NCBI RefSeq assembly: GCF_030848575.1
Contig: NZ_JAVDDX010000003.1
Span: 1-64,000 of the forward strand
Direction: 5' to 3'
Length of the DNA: 64,000 bases
From: Haloarcula sp. H-GB4
Lineage (GTDB): Archaea; Halobacteriota; Halobacteria; Halobacteriales; Haloarculaceae
Below are positions 38,125-49,656 of this stretch, piece by piece. How positions within the stretch are numbered: the first letter of the stretch is position 1; each line of letters starts with the position of its first letter. The notes under the pieces were generated by a model. It saw nothing but the letters and a program-made list of their open reading frames with translations, had not been told where the DNA came from and ran no database searches. Made by a program: the position numbers and the translations under genes.

Positions 38125-40278
38125 CTAACTCCACAGGTTCTGCAAAACGTCATATGATTGTTTTAATCGCTCGGTATATGATGGCTGGTTCCACTGTTCC
38201 CAGCTGTACGTGGCTGTGTCCACTGTCGTACCGTTGCGTCCGGGGAGAGCGTCTATGAGATTTGTTGTGCCATCGAGAGTCTGCGCCTGACGTCCATCTG
38301 TGGTCGGACGATACGTTGCAGCGCCAACTGTTACTGTCTCGAAAGACGTTGTTTCAAGACCGTCGGACCAGTCTGATGCGATTCGCTGTTTGGTTGACGG
38401 ATCAGCAACGTTGAGTAGAACCCAGGGCAGTCGCATCTCGACTGTTCGGTCTGCCGGACTGACGTGGACATCGGTGAGGGAACTGTAATCTGGCGATGAC
38501 GGGTCCCCGTTCGCGTAGGTGAGCTGTCCCGTTTCGACGGCCTCAAACGGAACCACATCGCCGGTCGCTGGGACAGTGTATCCACGATTGATAGGCTCGC
38601 GTACCGGAACGAATCCCGCCGTTCCGTCGCGATATTCCTGCACTGGTAAGCCCGCCTGAGAACCGGATTCGCGGGCGAACGCGTCGAACGACGACTGGAC
38701 CAGCAGACGGGATGTCGCTGGTCCACGCAGGTGAACGACAAAGTCAGCAGCGGCTGTCGCACCCGTATTGAGTGGGAGAGGCGTCTCTTGCCCACGTAGT
38801 CCAACTGTCAGGATGATGTTCACCTGACTCCAGTCCATCGGGTCGGCTACGTCACCGAGCGTTACTCGCATCTCTAATCCTTCTAGACTGTGTGAGATGC
38901 GAAGCTCCTCGAGTTGTTGATCGGCTGGAACATTGGCTGCTGTTTGTGGCTTGATGACAGTGGCGTCGTTCCAGTCTGAGCTGTTGCCGGACAGGGAAAC
39001 AGAATTCTCCGGCTCAAACGCCAACAATCCGAATCGCTGTTCGGGAGTCTCAATGTTTGACCAGTACGGACGACGGCCGGGGACCGAGCGGGCATCAAGA
39101 TTCCACGTCCGCTTGAACCACTCGTCTTGCCATGCGAATGCAACGCCGCCTGCGGTGCCTGCTTTGACGATGTCCTCGTACATCGCCGCGACGATCTCGC
39201 CCTGGGACTGCTCAGTATGTTGGCCCTGATGACGCCCATGTACGTCACGGTGCGCGATACCCCGTGAACTTGGCACTCCGAACTCAGCAATGAGGAGTGG
39301 ATGGGTTGTCACACTGACCAGGTCATTGAGGTAGCCGGCGTAGCTATTGGGCTCACCACGGTGGTCAATAAAGTCGACGTAGTCCGGTGTTTCATTGAGC
39401 AGGTCGGGATAGTACGGGTAGACGTGGTAGGCCGCAAACGTGCCCGGATCGAACGCATCAGTTGTGGTAACAGTATCCGGGTCAATCGTGACTGAATCTT
39501 CGTCGACAAATGGCTCATACGGATGCTCCAGCGGATCAGTCGTCACCCAGTTGACGAACCCGACAGGGGCTTGCCAGTCATGGTTGGTTGTTTCGTGAGC
39601 GACAGTACCGTCTAACCGCTCCGCAAGCCACCGCTCGAAGGCACTCCCATCACTTTGTACGTACGACCCGCTGTACGTCCCAGCGTCGTTGGCTTGGTTC
39701 GTTGCCTCGACCACGGATGGTGGCCACTCGATACCGAATAAATACCCCAGAAGCCACTCGTGAACATCAGCATCGTAGATACCACCAGCATGCCCGGGTC
39801 GGTCCGGAAGAGTCGTGTCACCGTGGACAACGTCCACGGTACGCTGTAGCTCCTGATCGACTGTGTCTGCGATGCTGGTTGCATCGCCTGCGGTGACTAG
39901 TGGCTCGTGTGGTACCCACGTTCCCTGCAAGAGGTACAACGGATCGGTTGCATCCGCGTTGTACGCTACAAGGGCGTGATAGAACTCGGGAGGATGAATC
40001 GTATAGGTTCGTATCACATTGGCGATAGCGCCGATATCCGCTATCCAGCGGTCGTATTCGTCCCGTGTAATGGCTGCCGACCCTGGGAAATAGCCGGGCT
40101 TTGCCATACCAATGTTCAGGCCACGAACGGTCAGCGGTTCATACCCGTCGTCAGTGAGTCGCTCAAACCCTTTCCGACGGACCTGAAACATCGGTTGATT
40201 ACCGTTCTCGCTTAAACACCCCGCAACACCAGCAGCCCCAGTCACACCGACAGACGCGAGAAAGCGGCGACGTTCCAT
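38125..40278 (-). CDS. Secreted glycoside-hydrolase-like Tat lipoprotein
   Basis: 717 aa from the ATG at 40278 (MERRRFLASVGVTGAAG); a second ATG is at 40287. The Tat signal ends in the lipobox AGVAGC. Residues about 30-430 look like a TIM-barrel glycoside hydrolase: VRGLNIGMAKPGYFP near the barrel start, DIGAIANVIRTYTIHPPEFY, and HPLLIAEFGVPSSRGIAH, whose Glu could be a clan A nucleophile. GVAFAWQDEWFKRTW ends the barrel. The C-terminal 270 residues are beta-rich, perhaps carbohydrate binding. It is divergent from the receiver-HEAT-GT2-kinase operon, which makes a polysaccharide-processing role likely. Specificity is unknown. Confidence 0.8.
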   Translation of the reverse strand: MERRRFLASVGVTGAAGVAGCLSENGNQPMFQVRRKGFERLTDDGYEPLTVRGLNIGMAKPGYFPGSAAITRDEYDRWIADIGAIANVIRTYTIHPPEFYHALVAYNADATDPLYLLQGTWVPHEPLVTAGDATSIADTVDQELQRTVDVVHGDTTLPDRPGHAGGIYDADVHEWLLGYLFGIEWPPSVVEATNQANDAGTYSGSYVQSDGSAFERWLAERLDGTVAHETTNHDWQAPVGFVNWVTTDPLEHPYEPFVDEDSVTIDPDTVTTTDAFDPGTFAAYHVYPYYPDLLNETPDYVDFIDHRGEPNSYAGYLNDLVSVTTHPLLIAEFGVPSSRGIAHRDVHGRHQGQHTEQSQGEIVAAMYEDIVKAGTAGGVAFAWQDEWFKRTWNLDARSVPGRRPYWSNIETPEQRFGLLAFEPENSVSLSGNSSDWNDATVIKPQTAANVPADQQLEELRISHSLEGLEMRVTLGDVADPMDWSQVNIILTVGLRGQETPLPLNTGATAAADFVVHLRGPATSRLLVQSSFDAFARESGSQAGLPVQEYRDGTAGFVPVREPINRGYTVPATGDVVPFEAVETGQLTYANGDPSSPDYSSLTDVHVSPADRTVEMRLPWVLLNVADPSTKQRIASDWSDGLETTSFETVTVGAATYRPTTDGRQAQTLDGTTNLIDALPGRNGTTVDTATYSWEQWNQPSYTERLKQSYDVLQNLWS

Positions 40279-40326
40279 AGATAGCATATGGTTCTGTATC
40301 TGATTACTCTATTGCTCTCTAATGGA

Positions 40327-40338
40327 TAGTAATTACTA
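40327..40338. promoter_or_regulatory. Palindrome TAGTAATTACTA in a divergent promoter
   Basis: A perfect 12-bp dyad lying between the hydrolase-like gene and the response regulator operon, 7 bases upstream of a TATA-like element. It is placed to control both sides. Confidence 0.45.
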
Positions 40339-40344
40339 GCCACT

Positions 40345-40354
40345 GATATATTAT
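40345..40354 (+). promoter_or_regulatory. Likely TATA box of the receiver-HEAT-GT2-kinase operon
   Basis: GATATATTAT is centred about 47 bases before the ATG at 40397, which would give a leader of about 20 bases. A second AT-rich element at 40375-40383 is too near the start to serve a leaderless message. Confidence 0.45.
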
Positions 40355-40396
40355 TAGACGGACTTTTGACCCTGCATATATTAGCGACGACAACAA

Positions 40397-40774
40397 ATGG
40401 GTGATGAAATACTCGTAGTTGATGACGATGAAACACTTCGGCAGTTGCTCACCCACCGATTGGAGAGTGCGGGATACGCTGTCCGCGTCTGTGAGGACGG
40501 ACAGGCCGCGGCCGATCTGCTTGATACGGGGTATGAACCAGCACTGGTTATTTGTGATGTGATGATGCCGCGTCTCGACGGGACCCGACTACTACGGATG
40601 ATCCGGGGCGGTGAGTTGGCAGTGCGTTCGGACTTACCCATTGTCATGCTCACATCTCGTGGACAGGAAGAGCACGTACTAGAGGGGTTTGACTCCGGCG
40701 CGGATGATTATGTCACCAAGCCGTTTCGTGCACAAGAGCTACTAGCTCGGGTTCGAAGATATGCGACGGCGTGA
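40397..40774 (+). CDS. Receiver-only response regulator
   Basis: 125 aa, a stand-alone CheY-like receiver. Acidic cluster VVDDDE (7-12), phosphorylation Asp at residue 54 in VICDVMMPRLDG, Thr in LTSRG and Lys at 108 in DDYVTKPF are all present. No output domain follows, so the signal must pass by protein contact, most simply to the HEAT-repeat protein or glycosyltransferase encoded next. It starts an operon of four genes that ends with a histidine kinase. Confidence 0.93.
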   Translation: MGDEILVVDDDETLRQLLTHRLESAGYAVRVCEDGQAAADLLDTGYEPALVICDVMMPRLDGTRLLRMIRGGELAVRSDLPIVMLTSRGQEEHVLEGFDSGADDYVTKPFRAQELLARVRRYATA

Positions 40775-40789
40775 ACAGGAGTGCCGGTG

Positions 40790-41914
40790 ATGCAGGGTGC
40801 TGTGGCGGTAGGTGAGTATTCCGTACCCATCAGTGTCATCCTCGCTGTTATAGGACTCCTCGTTGGAATCGGACTCATAGTCTCGCTTGCACTCACAATG
40901 GGGCTGTCGAGCTACCGGTATCTCAAGGCCACACAGCGGAGTCGTGTGCGCTCGGACGTACAAGACGAGCTACTCAGCAGAGCCTTTGCACCAGAATCAA
41001 AGTGGGACGAATGGGTCCCTACTCTTTCGAAGACAGAACGGAGCGTCGCGATGGAACTTCTAGCAGAGTATCTTCGTGAGCTTGACGGGAGCGAAGCCGA
41101 CTCGCTCAAGCAGCTCGGTGCCGCGTTGGGCATCCCAGATGACGCCCGGTCTGATTTAGAACGTGGTCATACGTTCGTTCGATTACAGGCATTAACGTGG
41201 CTCATCAGACTAGATGATCCAGATCCGTATCATGCGGCATCTTACGAGCCAACGACACAGGCCGAGCGAGCGGCCGTAGCGCGTCTGCTCTTTCAGACCG
41301 GACAGTTGGATTCCCCCGCAGAGGGCGTCGAGTTACTGCTAGATGGGGCGACAACGGAGTTCAGTGTCTTTGGTCAAGATACGCTGTATCGGCTTGCACG
41401 GGAGGCCCCCGATACGATGTTTGCACTTGCAGCAAACCGGTACGAGGCGTGGTCAGATGCACTGTTGGCGCAAGTGTTACTCGTTCACGGACAACTCGGA
41501 ACCGGCATTCGCACAGCAGATATATCTTGGTTGACATCCAATTTGGAGGCTGATGACGAGGGTGTACGAGCGGCCGCAGCAAGTGCGCTTGGCAGTTTCG
41601 GCTGGCGACCGGAGCTTCGAGATTCACGGTTTCTGGCCCGGGCCACGGCTGATTCCTCGCCGCGTGTTCGGGGTGCTGTCTACGAGATGCTGGGTTCATG
41701 GGGCGATCAAGAGGCAGTGACAATCCTTCTCTATGCGCTTGTTTCCGAAGAGGATCCACGGGCGTTAGTCCGTGGAACGAACGCACTGGTGCGACGACAG
41801 GATCAGATCGGTCGTAGTGGACCAGCTATTCTCGGCGCTGCCTGGGAATGGAGCAGTGAACACGTATCATACGATAGTGTCGCCCGGGGCCACACCCGGG
41901 CCACCCAGGGATAA
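40790..41914 (+). CDS. Membrane-anchored HEAT-repeat protein
   Basis: 374 aa from the ATG at 40790, preceded by GGAG at 40778-40781; a GTG at 40781 is an alternative. A membrane helix is at residues about 10-35 (ISVILAVIGLLVGIGLIVSL), placing the rest in the cytoplasm. The remaining part is helical with HEAT-like repeats near the C-terminus: DEGVRAAAASALGSFGWRPE and SSPRVRGAVYEMLGSWGDQE, then EDPRALVRGTNALV. It lies between the receiver (15-base gap) and the glycosyltransferase (3-base gap), so an adaptor role linking phosphorylation to synthesis is inferred. Confidence 0.8.
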   Translation: MQGAVAVGEYSVPISVILAVIGLLVGIGLIVSLALTMGLSSYRYLKATQRSRVRSDVQDELLSRAFAPESKWDEWVPTLSKTERSVAMELLAEYLRELDGSEADSLKQLGAALGIPDDARSDLERGHTFVRLQALTWLIRLDDPDPYHAASYEPTTQAERAAVARLLFQTGQLDSPAEGVELLLDGATTEFSVFGQDTLYRLAREAPDTMFALAANRYEAWSDALLAQVLLVHGQLGTGIRTADISWLTSNLEADDEGVRAAAASALGSFGWRPELRDSRFLARATADSSPRVRGAVYEMLGSWGDQEAVTILLYALVSEEDPRALVRGTNALVRRQDQIGRSGPAILGAAWEWSSEHVSYDSVARGHTRATQG

Positions 41915-41917
41915 CTA

Positions 41918-43354
41918 ATGCATTCAACGACTCATCTGGCCGTCACAGTGTTTGGCGCAATTGGGCTGTTCATTCTTGCCTACTATCTCGTAGTAAACGG
42001 CTATTATCTCTGTCTCCATATTCTGGCTCTGTTCGAGTTGCGCGACGACGTGCGTGAAGCAAACTGGGATGAGCCGTTCAGGCGGTTTGCCAGCCCGTTT
42101 TATCCAGGGATTGCGCTTGTCGTTCCAGCCTACAACGAGGCAGCGACGATTGAAGAGAGTGTCCAGTCGATGCTGTCGCTGAACTACCCAGAACTCGAGG
42201 TTGTCGTCGTCAACGATGGGTCAACTGATGAGACGCTTGAGAGATTGATCGAACGGTTTGAACTCGAGGAAATCGAGGCAGCCGTGCCATTCGAAGTGCC
42301 TAGCGAAGAGATACACGGGACATACCGGTCAACCCGATACGAGGAGCTGTTGGTTGTTGACAAGGCAAACGGGGGCAAGAGTGACGCACTCAATGCCGGT
42401 ATCTGGCTGACAGAGATGGCGCTGTTCTGTGCGGTCGATTCGGATACGATTATCGACAGAGATGCATTATTGCAGATCGTCAAACCGTTTCTCAAGCGGC
42501 CGGGGACGACAGTGGCGACAGGCGGCGTCATCAGAGTAGCAAACGAATGTATTGTCAAGGATGGCCTCGTCAAAGAGGTGAAGCTTCCGAAGACTGGGCT
42601 CCCAGGACTACAGGTAATGGAGTATCTCCGTGCGTTCTACTCCGGTCGACTCGGACTCAATCGGCTCAAAGGATTAATTCTCATCTCGGGTGCGTTCGGT
42701 CTCTTTCGAACCGACGTTGTCCGCGAGATTGGTGGCTATCGCCATGACACGATTACAGAAGACTTCGACATCATCGTTCGCCTCCACCGGTATCTGACCG
42801 ACGAAGGACGGGAATACACTGTCGATTTTGTGCCCGAGCCAGTCGCCTGGACGGAAGTTCCAAGCAATAGACGCATGCTCGGCCGCCAGCGCCGTCGCTG
42901 GTTCCGTGGAATGGTTGAGACGGTTGTCACGAATCGAGGAATGCTATTCAACCCATCGTACGGCCGCGTCGGAACAGTCATTCTTCCGTTCTTTGTCGCA
43001 GCGGAGGTGTTTGGTCCACTTATCGAGGGGCTAGGCTACATTATTCTCCCGCTTGCGTGGTACTTTGGGGTGTTGAGCATCGAATTTGTCATTGTTTTCT
43101 TTTTGCTTACGACTGGGTTTGGTATCTTCCTGTCATGGTTCGGCGTGTTCAGCGAAGTCTGGAGTTTCAACCGATATGAAGACCCACGGCAGATAGGACG
43201 ATTACTGTGGTACGGCGTGCTGGAGAACTTCGGTTACCGACAGTGGAAGACTATCGTGGCCTGGCAGGGCCTCATTGAGTATTTCCGCGGAGTAGATAGC
43301 TGGGGCGTCATGGAACGGGGCGGGTTCAGCGTTGAAAACCGTGAAGATAGCTGA
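41918..43354 (+). CDS. Processive family 2 glycosyltransferase (polysaccharide synthase)
   Basis: 478 aa. One helix lies at residues 9-36, and three or four helices at about 345-410. The GT-A domain between them has all the markers of a processive synthase such as PgaC, hyaluronan or cellulose synthase: VVNDGSTDE (Asp100), DSDT (174-177), TEDFD (280-284) and QRRRW (324-328). The product would be a beta-linked polymer pushed through the membrane. PilZ is absent, so cyclic-di-GMP control is not indicated. The operon suggests control by the receiver and the HEAT protein. Confidence 0.92.
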   Translation: MHSTTHLAVTVFGAIGLFILAYYLVVNGYYLCLHILALFELRDDVREANWDEPFRRFASPFYPGIALVVPAYNEAATIEESVQSMLSLNYPELEVVVVNDGSTDETLERLIERFELEEIEAAVPFEVPSEEIHGTYRSTRYEELLVVDKANGGKSDALNAGIWLTEMALFCAVDSDTIIDRDALLQIVKPFLKRPGTTVATGGVIRVANECIVKDGLVKEVKLPKTGLPGLQVMEYLRAFYSGRLGLNRLKGLILISGAFGLFRTDVVREIGGYRHDTITEDFDIIVRLHRYLTDEGREYTVDFVPEPVAWTEVPSNRRMLGRQRRRWFRGMVETVVTNRGMLFNPSYGRVGTVILPFFVAAEVFGPLIEGLGYIILPLAWYFGVLSIEFVIVFFLLTTGFGIFLSWFGVFSEVWSFNRYEDPRQIGRLLWYGVLENFGYRQWKTIVAWQGLIEYFRGVDSWGVMERGGFSVENREDS

Positions 43355-43371
43355 GAACTGAATGTAACCAA

Positions 43372-44520
43372 ATGGCTATGGCAGCCGATGCTGACGATTA
43401 CTTTCGAGACCTGTATGAACTCGGCGCAGATCGCTCATTGGCATTAGATGAAAAAATCGAGCAGGCGATAACAATCGGACGTGATCGACTGGGGCTGGCC
43501 TACGGAGTGCTCTCATACACAGCTGAAGGCGAGTATAATGTCGTTGGGTCAACTGTTGAGACGGGCGACTACGCAGTCGGGACAGTCCACAATCTTGACG
43601 AAACGTGGTGTCGGCACGTTGTCAAGGACCACGAAATGCTCATTGTATCTGATGCGGACGCCTCGGAATATGCTGATGACATCGCCGCAGAGGCTACCGG
43701 GTTGCAGTGTTATATCGGTGCACCAATACTGGTCGACGGTGAAACATATGGAACGCTTTGTTACTCTGACGACAGCCCTCGAAAGGGCGAGTTTGAAGAC
43801 CAGGAACAACAGTTCGTCGAGCTATTAACGCAGTGGATTAGCTACGAAATAGAGCGGCACAAACACTACCAGACCGTCGAAGCGCAAAATGAGCGACTCA
43901 ACGAGTTCGCTGGGGTGCTTGCACACGATATTCGGAACCCACTGACGGCTGCAATCGGATACACAGAATATGCCTTGGAATCCGCGCCGGACGCAGTTGC
44001 GACGCACTTACAGACAGTGCTTGACTCCCTAGACCGGATTGAGACACTCATCACAAATACACTCTCGCTGGCCCGCAACGGCGCGGATGTTGGAGAGCGA
44101 GAACCGGTCGATATCGCAACGATTGCACGTGACGCATGGGATATCGTTTCGCCGCCGAGCGCCACATTGACCATCTCTGATAGTCGCACGATTATGGCTG
44201 ACAGGTCGCGTCTCCAGCAATTATTCGAGAACCTGTTCCGTAATGTCAAAGAGCACTGTGGCGAGGATGTGACAGTCACGGTCCGGGGCACAGAGACCGG
44301 ATTTGAAGTCAGTAATGACGGGCCTGAACTACCGGAGCCGATAGCAAAGTCGGTGTTTGGTGGCTCGTTCGGCCAAAATCGAGTCGGCCTCGGCCTCCTA
44401 ATCGTAGAGCGAGTCGTTTCTGGGCATGGCTGGGAGGGCGACGTAGAAACGAGACCTGAAGAAACCAAATTCATATTCTCGGACATTGGGACGGCCACGA
44501 AAGCTGGCAAGACAGTCTGA
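43372..44520 (+). CDS. GAF-domain histidine kinase
   Basis: 382 aa, soluble. A GAF domain covers about residues 25-160 (EKIEQAITIGRDRLGLAYGV, YIGAPILVDGETYGTLCYSD). The HisKA part has LAHDIRNPLTAAIGYTEYAL with His185. The ATPase domain shows LFENLFRNVKEHC (N-box), EVSNDGPELPE and VGLGLLIVERVVSGHGW. The kinase is 17 bases after the glycosyltransferase and is the likely phosphodonor for the receiver at 40397. GAF domains bind small ligands or chromophores; the ligand is unknown. Confidence 0.92.
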   Translation: MAMAADADDYFRDLYELGADRSLALDEKIEQAITIGRDRLGLAYGVLSYTAEGEYNVVGSTVETGDYAVGTVHNLDETWCRHVVKDHEMLIVSDADASEYADDIAAEATGLQCYIGAPILVDGETYGTLCYSDDSPRKGEFEDQEQQFVELLTQWISYEIERHKHYQTVEAQNERLNEFAGVLAHDIRNPLTAAIGYTEYALESAPDAVATHLQTVLDSLDRIETLITNTLSLARNGADVGEREPVDIATIARDAWDIVSPPSATLTISDSRTIMADRSRLQQLFENLFRNVKEHCGEDVTVTVRGTETGFEVSNDGPELPEPIAKSVFGGSFGQNRVGLGLLIVERVVSGHGWEGDVETRPEETKFIFSDIGTATKAGKTV

Positions 44521-47697: not shown

Positions 47698-49656
47698 TCA
47701 CCGCTCGAAATCCGGCCGTTGAAGCCCGGTGATTCTGGTACAGGCCTCGGCGTCGAGTCGCTGTCCAGCGGCGTCTATGTTCTCGACGATATGAGATGGT
47801 GTCGTACTGGACGGAATTGGAACGACGCCCTGTGTGACGTTCCACGCCAGCACCGCTCCGGCTGGTGATAAGCCAAACGCCTCCGCGATATCCACCAGAA
47901 CTGGTTCGTCAAGCAATCCGGGAGCCGACAGCGGCGAGTGTGCGACGACCCTAATGCCTCGCTCGTGACAGTACTCGACGAGGTCAGTCCGTGGCTGGTA
48001 CGGATGGCGCTCAACCTGGACGAGTGCCGGCCTGACAGTCCCGCTCTCGATGACCGTCTCCAGTTGGGGCTGCGAGACGTTACAGAGCCCGAGCGTGCGC
48101 GCCCAGCCCCGCTTGTGGAGGGTTTCCAGATTCGCCCAGGCTCGCTGGAGCGAGACCGAGTCGGTCTCGATGTCGCCCGCGTCGTCCTCGGGGAAGGTCA
48201 ATGCCTCCTGGCGCTCGATTGGTTTCTCGGCCAGTCGATCTAAGCGCCCGCTGTGAGCCCACGCCTCTGGCCAGTGTAATGCGTAGCAGTCGAACGCGTC
48301 GATGCCTAACTCGTCGAGACTGCCCCGACAGGCCGTAAGCATGTGCTCCTGACGATGGTTCGTGCGCCAGACTTTCCCGAGCAGGAACACCTGATGCCGG
48401 TCGGGCGCGCCCGGAGCGGCAAGGATACGGCCGATACGGTGTTCATTACCGTACAGTTCGGCGCTGTCGAGCAGTCGGTAGCCGGCATCGAGGGCCGCCG
48501 CAATGGAGTCCGCGCGGTCGACGTACGTTCCGTTGCGGTAGCGGGAACAGCCAAACCCGACGGCCGGGAGCCGAATCGCTTGCTCTTGGCTACTGTTCGG
48601 GGTGACTGTCGGTGCTGGCTGAGGGGCGGCCGCCACGCCGTAGTCGGACACGGACTCCGGCCCACTCGTCTCCGCAGTCGTCTCAATCGCGTTACAGACC
48701 GCGACAACGTGGGCGCCACGGCGGCCCGTCTTCCGCGACGGAGAACCACGATTGACACTGGCCGCAAGCGACTCCACCGGGTCGAGATAGCGATACGGTT
48801 GTGTGGGGTGCTGGGCGGGCGCGTCGATGTATTCGCGGCCGACGCGACCATACTGAACGGCTGAGGGGCTGTCGGCCATTGCGCCGGTCCCGCGGAGATA
48901 CAGCGAGCCGTCGTCGCCGTGGAGTTCGAGCCCGTAGAACTCGCGACTCCGGTGTGGCGCGTAGAAACTCGCGGTTAGCCGCACGGTCAGACCGCCGTCA
49001 AACGCGAGCGTCGCCTCAATGTGGCTCGGGACGGACGGCCGTTTTGCCTCCCGCTCGGGCCAGCTATCGAGTGCAGTAGCGGACTGGACGGATTTGACGG
49101 GGCCAAACCACGAGATCAGCAGCGCGAGCGGATAGACACCGCCGTCGTAGAGCGGCCCAATAGAGAGAAACGAATCGGGCCGGTCGTGCCAATCGGTCAC
49201 GCGGCCGACGTGAGCGTGGGCGTATCCTAGCTGGACGGGACCCATACGACCGTCGGCGAGCAGTCGTCCAGCACGACGCTGTGACGGCCCCTGGGGCGTG
49301 CCCGGGGCACAACCAAGCGCCAGATTCCGGTCCCGGGCCAGCGCAAGCAAATCGGCGGCGGCCGCCTCTTCCAGTGCCAACGGCTTCTGCGAGTACACGT
49401 GTCGCCCTGCTTCGAGTACCGTTCGAGTCACCGATGCGTGGGCAGCGTGGTTCGTCAGGTTCACCACCAGCGGAGCGTCGACGGCGGTGAGCGCGGTGTC
49501 GAGGTCGGTAAACGCCGGGCAATCGTGTTCCGCGGCGAGTGCCTTCGCCCGGTCCGCTTCGAGGTCACAGACGCCCGCCAGCGAGAGCGGGCCATCTGCC
49601 AGCTCTGCCGCGTACTCCGCCGCGATACTGCCCGCACCGACGAACAGACAGTGCAC
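47698..49656 (-). CDS. Gfo/Idh/MocA oxidoreductase fused to aldo/keto reductase
   Basis: 652 aa with a GTG start. Residues 1-340 are a Gfo/Idh/MocA dehydrogenase: CLFVGAGSIAAEYAAELADG (NAD(P) motif), VYSQKPLALEEAAAADLL (the EKP-like motif reads QKP) and SIGPLYDGGVYPLALLISWF. After a short linker (APQPAPTVTPNSSQEQ) residues 365-652 form an aldo/keto reductase: LLDSAELYGNE with catalytic Asp and Tyr, LLGKVW with Lys, and YALHWPEAW with His. Both halves act on sugar-like hydroxyl or keto groups, so a two-step redox change of one substrate is inferred. It is divergent from the gene at 49722. Confidence 0.9.
   Translation of the reverse strand: MHCLFVGAGSIAAEYAAELADGPLSLAGVCDLEADRAKALAAEHDCPAFTDLDTALTAVDAPLVVNLTNHAAHASVTRTVLEAGRHVYSQKPLALEEAAAADLLALARDRNLALGCAPGTPQGPSQRRAGRLLADGRMGPVQLGYAHAHVGRVTDWHDRPDSFLSIGPLYDGGVYPLALLISWFGPVKSVQSATALDSWPEREAKRPSVPSHIEATLAFDGGLTVRLTASFYAPHRSREFYGLELHGDDGSLYLRGTGAMADSPSAVQYGRVGREYIDAPAQHPTQPYRYLDPVESLAASVNRGSPSRKTGRRGAHVVAVCNAIETTAETSGPESVSDYGVAAAPQPAPTVTPNSSQEQAIRLPAVGFGCSRYRNGTYVDRADSIAAALDAGYRLLDSAELYGNEHRIGRILAAPGAPDRHQVFLLGKVWRTNHRQEHMLTACRGSLDELGIDAFDCYALHWPEAWAHSGRLDRLAEKPIERQEALTFPEDDAGDIETDSVSLQRAWANLETLHKRGWARTLGLCNVSQPQLETVIESGTVRPALVQVERHPYQPRTDLVEYCHERGIRVVAHSPLSAPGLLDEPVLVDIAEAFGLSPAGAVLAWNVTQGVVPIPSSTTPSHIVENIDAAGQRLDAEACTRITGLQRPDFER

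Follow-up and report, generated by a model that had tools for sequence, protein, structure and literature searches.

A gene cassette of receiver, HEAT protein and glycosyltransferase shared by haloarchaea and bacteria as a candidate switch for surface polysaccharide synthesis

The locus in Haloarcula sp. H-GB4

We analyzed a window of 64,000 nucleotides from Haloarcula sp. H-GB4 (contig NZ_JAVDDX010000003.1, positions 1 to 64,000), in which a first-pass annotation had described five neighboring open reading frames (ORFs) as a candidate exopolysaccharide system under two-component control. All five are present, and Pfam backs four of them. The first gene on the forward strand encodes a single-domain receiver (REC; 40397..40774, 125 aa; PF00072, 3.8e-29), followed on the same strand by genes for a HEAT-repeat protein (40781..41914, 377 aa from GTG 40781, with an alternative ATG at 40790; HEAT_2, 3.7e-10), a processive family-2 glycosyltransferase (GT2; 41918..43354, 478 aa; PF13641 (Glyco_tranf_2_3), 9.7e-22) and a soluble histidine kinase (43372..44520, 382 aa; Pfam GAF, HisKA and HATPase_c). 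The fifth ORF, for a hydrolase-like lipoprotein (HYD; 38125..40287, 720 aa), lies on the reverse strand across a divergent intergenic region of 118 bases (40279..40396), with a putative TATA-like sequence shortly upstream of the REC start. The spacings quoted earlier (15, 3 and 17 bases, and 118 bases on the divergent side) are correct, given a HEAT start at ATG 40790 and a HYD start at ATG 40278; the alternative upstream starts of these two genes give gaps of 6 and 109 bases.

According to hydropathy profiles, the HEAT protein has a single hydrophobic stretch near its N-terminus (residues 6-45), with positive residues after it, and its HEAT-repeat domain is predicted to be cytoplasmic. The same profiles show hydrophobic blocks at the N- and C-terminus of the GT2 and no transmembrane stretch in the kinase. 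The GT2 motifs DGS, DSD, TED and QRRRW are in place, with DGS, ED and QRxRW invariant across 27 relatives, and an alignment spanning archaea and bacteria displays the features of processive synthases (D, D, TED/GED, Q(R/Q)xRW and flanking transmembrane segments). Among family models, PgaC/IcaA (TIGR03937) scored best for the GT2, and membership of that family was rejected, the score of 132.3 bits being far under the curated cut-off of 422.3. Pfam scans revealed no PilZ domain in the window, in agreement with the first description, nor in the GT2 of Bacilli, and no search was made for a separate cyclic di-GMP (c-di-GMP) receptor elsewhere. Control of the synthase through a PilZ domain of its own was consequently rejected.

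Conservation across haloarchaea and bacteria

Of 292 Halobacteria genomes, 51, from 22 of 77 genera, had a relative of the GT2 (E up to 1e-30), two of these genomes (G279 and G145) having only a weak one with about 31-39% identity. A sample of 247 genomes from the phylum, the only archaeal phylum covered, gave no match beyond Halobacteria. We took 20 kb around each match for profile searches. Of the 50 haloarchaeal loci carrying the family, 49 have REC, HEAT and GT2 arranged in that sequence on a single strand, and 25 have HYD inside the 20-kb region. Carriers of the cassette include Haloarcula sebkhae, H. argentinensis, H. halophila, Salinirubellus, Halosolutus and Halovivax asiaticus. Its presence is patchy (e.g., 4/15 sampled genomes of the same genus), as might be expected of chance neighbors that form no functional unit. 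Such an explanation is extremely improbable, however, and was rejected, because nearly all haloarchaeal loci keep the three genes collinear, the arrangement recurs across domains of life, and the cassette is present or absent jointly with HYD. The proximity of the five genes goes beyond coincidence.

The association of HYD with the synthase, already proposed in the first-pass annotation, was supported at the level of whole genomes. Of the 292 genomes, 35 contain HYD, and 34 of these have the GT2 as well (Fisher p 1.6e-30 by genome, ignoring shared ancestry; hypergeometric p 6e-7 by genus, 10/10 genera); the sole HYD genome without GT2, G275, holds only a 206-residue HYD fragment. Moreover, in several genomes (e.g., G268, G115, G270, G015 and G170) HYD is on a different contig from the GT2, so that shared location alone cannot account for the pairing.

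Full-length relatives of HYD, with ~40% identity, occur throughout the Bacillota, and many of them lie beside a GT2 of ~35-43% identity that has a transmembrane HEAT protein encoded directly upstream. The genes of Rossellomorea and Bacillus are arranged as Hpt-GGDEF-REC, HEAT, GT2, a hydrolase extended at its N-terminus and a REC-hybrid kinase. By annotation, the trio is also present in Mesorhizobium, Erythrobacter and Devosia (Alphaproteobacteria) and in Emticicia (Bacteroidota), with a weak HEAT match in the latter, and Deinococcus (Deinococcota) has TPR-HEAT-GT2 with no neighboring REC. TPR and/or YaiO beta-barrel proteins accompany the cassette in the diderm loci, which would be expected if the polymer must cross an outer membrane. 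The archaeal and bacterial HEAT proteins are homologous (hhalign probability 97.3, E 2.1e-11, 290 columns). The neighborhood thus extends from Halobacteria to several bacterial phyla and is not specific to haloarchaea. The condition under which the first-pass annotation would have been refuted, a neighborhood restricted to the genus, does not hold. The unit of five genes should likewise be narrowed to a REC-HEAT-GT2 core, the hydrolase (near half of the archaeal loci) and the kinase being accessory; the latter is placed 3' of GT2 in the family of the window, and another family has it on the other strand.

The window REC gives higher scores with bacterial cassette RECs (best 81.3 bits, median 63.5) than with 26 other RECs of its own genome, drawn from its best 30 REC loci (best 63.9 bits, median 40.4), a result that fits inheritance of the cassette as a unit. 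In a REC tree, based on few columns and with poorly resolved deep forks, most cassette RECs cluster apart from the other genomic RECs. For Halovivax (L041/L154), the nearest REC chosen by distance differed from the cassette REC.

The receiver and the HEAT protein as control elements

The window REC has the complete set of residues of a phosphorylatable receiver, namely the acidic pair D9-D11, the acceptor D54, T86 and K108. D54, T86 (T or S) and K108 are kept in GGDEF-bearing Bacilli and, together with the acidic pair, in the archaeal cassette RECs that were read in frame. In several cassette RECs of Brevibacillus, Paenibacillus and clostridia (L093, L094, L095, L066, L088, L062, L101 and L103) the acceptor Asp is replaced by Glu, which might mimic phosphorylation. 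The GGDEF domain is intact (GGEEF) in the Bacillus group and degenerate or absent in other bacterial cassettes, where REC is retained. Given that archaea and Bacilli preserve the Asp whereas the presence of GGDEF domains varies, the unvarying input of the cassette is its receiver.

The intact GGEEF of Rossellomorea/Bacillus-type loci would also suit a different explanation, in which c-di-GMP, produced by the GGDEF-REC protein, is the true signal in bacteria and the REC of archaea is a remnant without its cyclase. We consider this quite unlikely, as the GT2 has no PilZ domain, REC persists in the bacterial cassettes that have lost or degraded GGDEF, and the archaeal RECs keep the full phosphorylation triad. 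Still, to call the system unlike c-di-GMP schemes, as was first done, is too strong for the many Bacilli that fuse REC to an intact GGDEF, even if the lack of PilZ on which that claim drew holds. The cassette regulators of two bacterial loci (L101:3776-5782 and L089:15870-17888) have an ODP-type beta-lactamase-fold domain joined with GGDEF and REC, a hint of oxygen or redox input.

At three bacterial loci, from Heliophilum, a clostridial metagenome-assembled genome and Acholeplasma oculi, HEAT and GT2 are joined in one ORF. Pfam HEAT repeats were called in the first two fusions, and that of Acholeplasma oculi was judged from ORF length. These fused ORFs suggest that HEAT contacts the GT2, and the cassette probably switches a surface sugar polymer on or off by direct protein contact. 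In such a mechanism, the soluble GAF kinase would phosphorylate the lone REC at D54, and phosphorylated REC would act on the membrane-anchored HEAT protein, the constant partner of the GT2 on the cytoplasmic side, so as to switch the synthase without transcription. The synthase itself would polymerize a sugar and extrude the chain.

Alternatively, HEAT may be only a structural or assembly partner of the GT2, with REC acting elsewhere, for example in a phosphorelay to a transcription factor, and the gene order reflecting co-expression. Lone receivers are able to serve phosphorelays, and Glu is frequent at the acceptor site of those bacterial variants that lack an intact GGDEF, so that phosphorylation is not needed universally. 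We nevertheless judge this alternative unlikely, since REC remains the neighbor of HEAT-GT2 in archaea and bacteria alike, in contrast to the variable GGDEF, kinase and hydrolase, and no DNA-binding gene is prominent among the most recurrent neighbor clusters. A general module of archaea and bacteria, in which a phosphorylated lone REC switches a processive synthase through a dedicated membrane-anchored HEAT protein and independently of c-di-GMP, is put forward tentatively, as a possibility to which we give slightly less than even weight.

In Natrialbaceae-like loci (L148:6547-7626, L157:6765-7760 and L170:4500-5516), the gene upstream of REC has weak HisKA and/or receiver matches and possibly encodes a divergent phosphotransfer protein.

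The polymer, the hydrolase and related systems

Genes for the synthesis of N-acetylglucosamine (GlcNAc) nucleotides accompany some of the cassettes. In loci presumed to be Halorubrum-like (family f4, genus g17), the cassette is flanked by genes for GlmS, GlmM and one or two GlmU-type enzymes, and at one of these loci (L133) the scores are above the curated cut-offs (glmS 706 vs 418, Arch_glmU 529 vs 292, Arch_GlmM 463 vs 439), a second nucleotidyltransferase being slightly under (264 vs 292). Brevibacillus formosus has the run HEAT-GT2-REC-nucleotide-sugar dehydrogenase-GlmS-GlmU-hydrolase (glmS 815 vs 418, glmU 598 vs 367, dehydrogenase 433 vs 190). Based on this linkage, which the first-pass annotation had missed, and on PgaC/IcaA being the best model for the GT2, though below its cut-off, UDP-GlcNAc is most likely the donor of the GT2. 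In some bacteria the polymer possibly contains a uronic sugar as well.

HYD carries a Tat motif (RRRFLA) and a lipobox (VAGC), as first noted, and has no matching Pfam family and no sequence match to any Pga family in Pfam or NCBIfam. The TIM barrel that had been proposed appears in its AlphaFold model (mean predicted local distance difference test score, pLDDT, 89.8; predicted template modeling score, pTM, 0.90), with the fold of glycoside hydrolase clan GH-A plus a beta-rich C-terminal part. The nearest solved fold is the GH157 endo-beta-1,3-glucanase LaGH157 (PDB 9g4n; Z 32.3, root-mean-square deviation 2.4, 307 aligned, 17% identity), followed by GH2 enzymes (glucuronidases). The profile match to the GH157 structure 9fz9 was weak (E 0.032). 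E335 is invariant and E187 is kept in at least 90% of 55 HYD homologues; located where the nucleophile and acid/base would be expected, the two are likely the catalytic pair. With its barrel and two candidate catalytic Glu residues, HYD conforms to clan GH-A, and hydrolase activity is predicted from the model. An identity as poly-GlcNAc hydrolase, judged among the listed fold families only, is not supported by these nearest folds. Many of the bacterial hydrolases have a ~380-residue N-terminal extension without a Pfam match (e.g., L045:8846-10100), and the haloarchaeal genome G089 has three HYD genes in tandem beside REC-HEAT-GT2 (L118:12457-19412).

The similarity of HYD to a GH157 beta-1,3-glucanase and other GH-A enzymes, together with the possible uronic acid suggested by the dehydrogenase of Brevibacillus-type cassettes, could mean that the GT2 makes a glycolipid, a glycoprotein sugar or a beta-glucan instead of a GlcNAc polymer. 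This is the most serious of the alternatives, albeit an unlikely one: QRRRW and a multi-transmembrane architecture are typical of processive synthases, PgaC/IcaA is the top-scoring model, and linkage to GlmS and GlmU is seen in both archaea and bacteria, with GlmM added in archaea. We favor, with some confidence, a synthase-dependent surface-polysaccharide machine that is gated by REC via HEAT, makes a GlcNAc-type polymer and has an external hydrolase, the exported GH-A-type lipoprotein, which would cut or remodel the polymer outside the cell. This proposal is built on gene order, homology, conservation, co-occurrence, the HEAT-GT2 fusions and the linked GlcNAc-nucleotide genes, from which we infer the identity of the polymer, the pairing of kinase and REC, the REC-HEAT contact and its sign, and the activity of the hydrolase.

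Several observations weigh against it. The precursor genes are absent beside the cassette of the window, the only strong glmS of that genome being on another contig, and the folds nearest to HYD, GH157 beta-1,3-glucanase and GH2 glucuronidases, include no known poly-GlcNAc hydrolase. An adjoining kinase is not always present, which makes the kinase-REC pairing uncertain. The putative contact among REC, HEAT and GT2 is deduced from gene order, HEAT-GT2 fusions and REC conservation, and the AlphaFold model of the natural fusion at L101 (mean pLDDT 81.4) has a pTM of 0.66, too low to place the domains with confidence. Related genomes are treated as independent in the genome-level Fisher test on HYD and GT2.

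Pga systems combine a synthase with an exported TIM-barrel hydrolase, to which diderms add a TPR-beta-barrel exporter. The cassette resembles PgaABCD/IcaADBC in all three respects and in the best-scoring model of its GT2, from which it differs by its REC and HEAT partners and by a GT2 score under the cut-off. With BcsA and other PilZ-controlled synthases it shares the processive D,D,D,QxxRW layout, but the candidate for control is the receiver, no PilZ having been found in the GT2.

Direct post-translational control by a lone receiver, first presented as a new route, has a precedent in Myxococcus xanthus. According to the available text of PMC12802240, the single-domain response regulator EpsW, encoded in a polysaccharide locus as the cassette REC seems to be, activates the phosphoglycosyl transferase EpsZ post-translationally, and experiments support that the phosphorylated regulator raises polysaccharide synthesis by contacting the glycan enzyme; in the cassette the corresponding contact is putative. 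EpsZ, however, belongs to a Wzx/Wzy pathway and is a large monotopic phosphoglycosyl transferase, whereas the candidate target here is a processive GT2, and EpsW-EpsZ as described there involves no HEAT protein. REC-GT2 fusions are also known in methanogens: REC-PF13641 proteins such as MTH_548 occur in Methanobacteriaceae, in three methanogen genera only in the survey (PMC5847659, available text). These link an archaeal receiver to a PF13641 glycosyltransferase, a likeness of domain content, in one polypeptide with no HEAT mentioned in that text, whereas REC and GT2 are separate ORFs in the window. Within Haloarcula, the acidic exopolysaccharide genes of Haloarcula hispanica include AepG, which according to the available text of PMC9943897 resembles dolichol phosphate mannose synthases rather than a processive synthase accompanied by REC and HEAT.

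No description of a REC-HEAT-GT2 cassette was found in the open-access literature searched, which leaves out most subscription journals. Synthase-dependent polysaccharides under post-translational control are of a known kind, and it is the REC-HEAT control unit and its archaeal-bacterial span that appear new. Apart from the cassette, the window holds a 652-aa ORF (47698-49656, reverse strand) in which a Gfo/Idh/MocA oxidoreductase (1-330) is joined to an aldo/keto reductase (366-645).

Lone receivers make up about 40% of archaeal response regulators; as conserved neighborhoods are missing for most of them, it was not possible to infer their targets (PMC5847659, available text). The cassette gives one such receiver a conserved, testable target. 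If our reading is true, a class of single-domain receivers in archaea would gain a concrete target, and archaea a route to an exopolymer based on GlcNAc; the prediction for haloarchaea is a surface polymer derived from GlcNAc. A likely role would also follow for a hydrolase family that is widespread in Bacillota and outside Pfam coverage, and c-di-GMP/PilZ would be joined by a control route for processive polysaccharide synthases common to archaea and bacteria.

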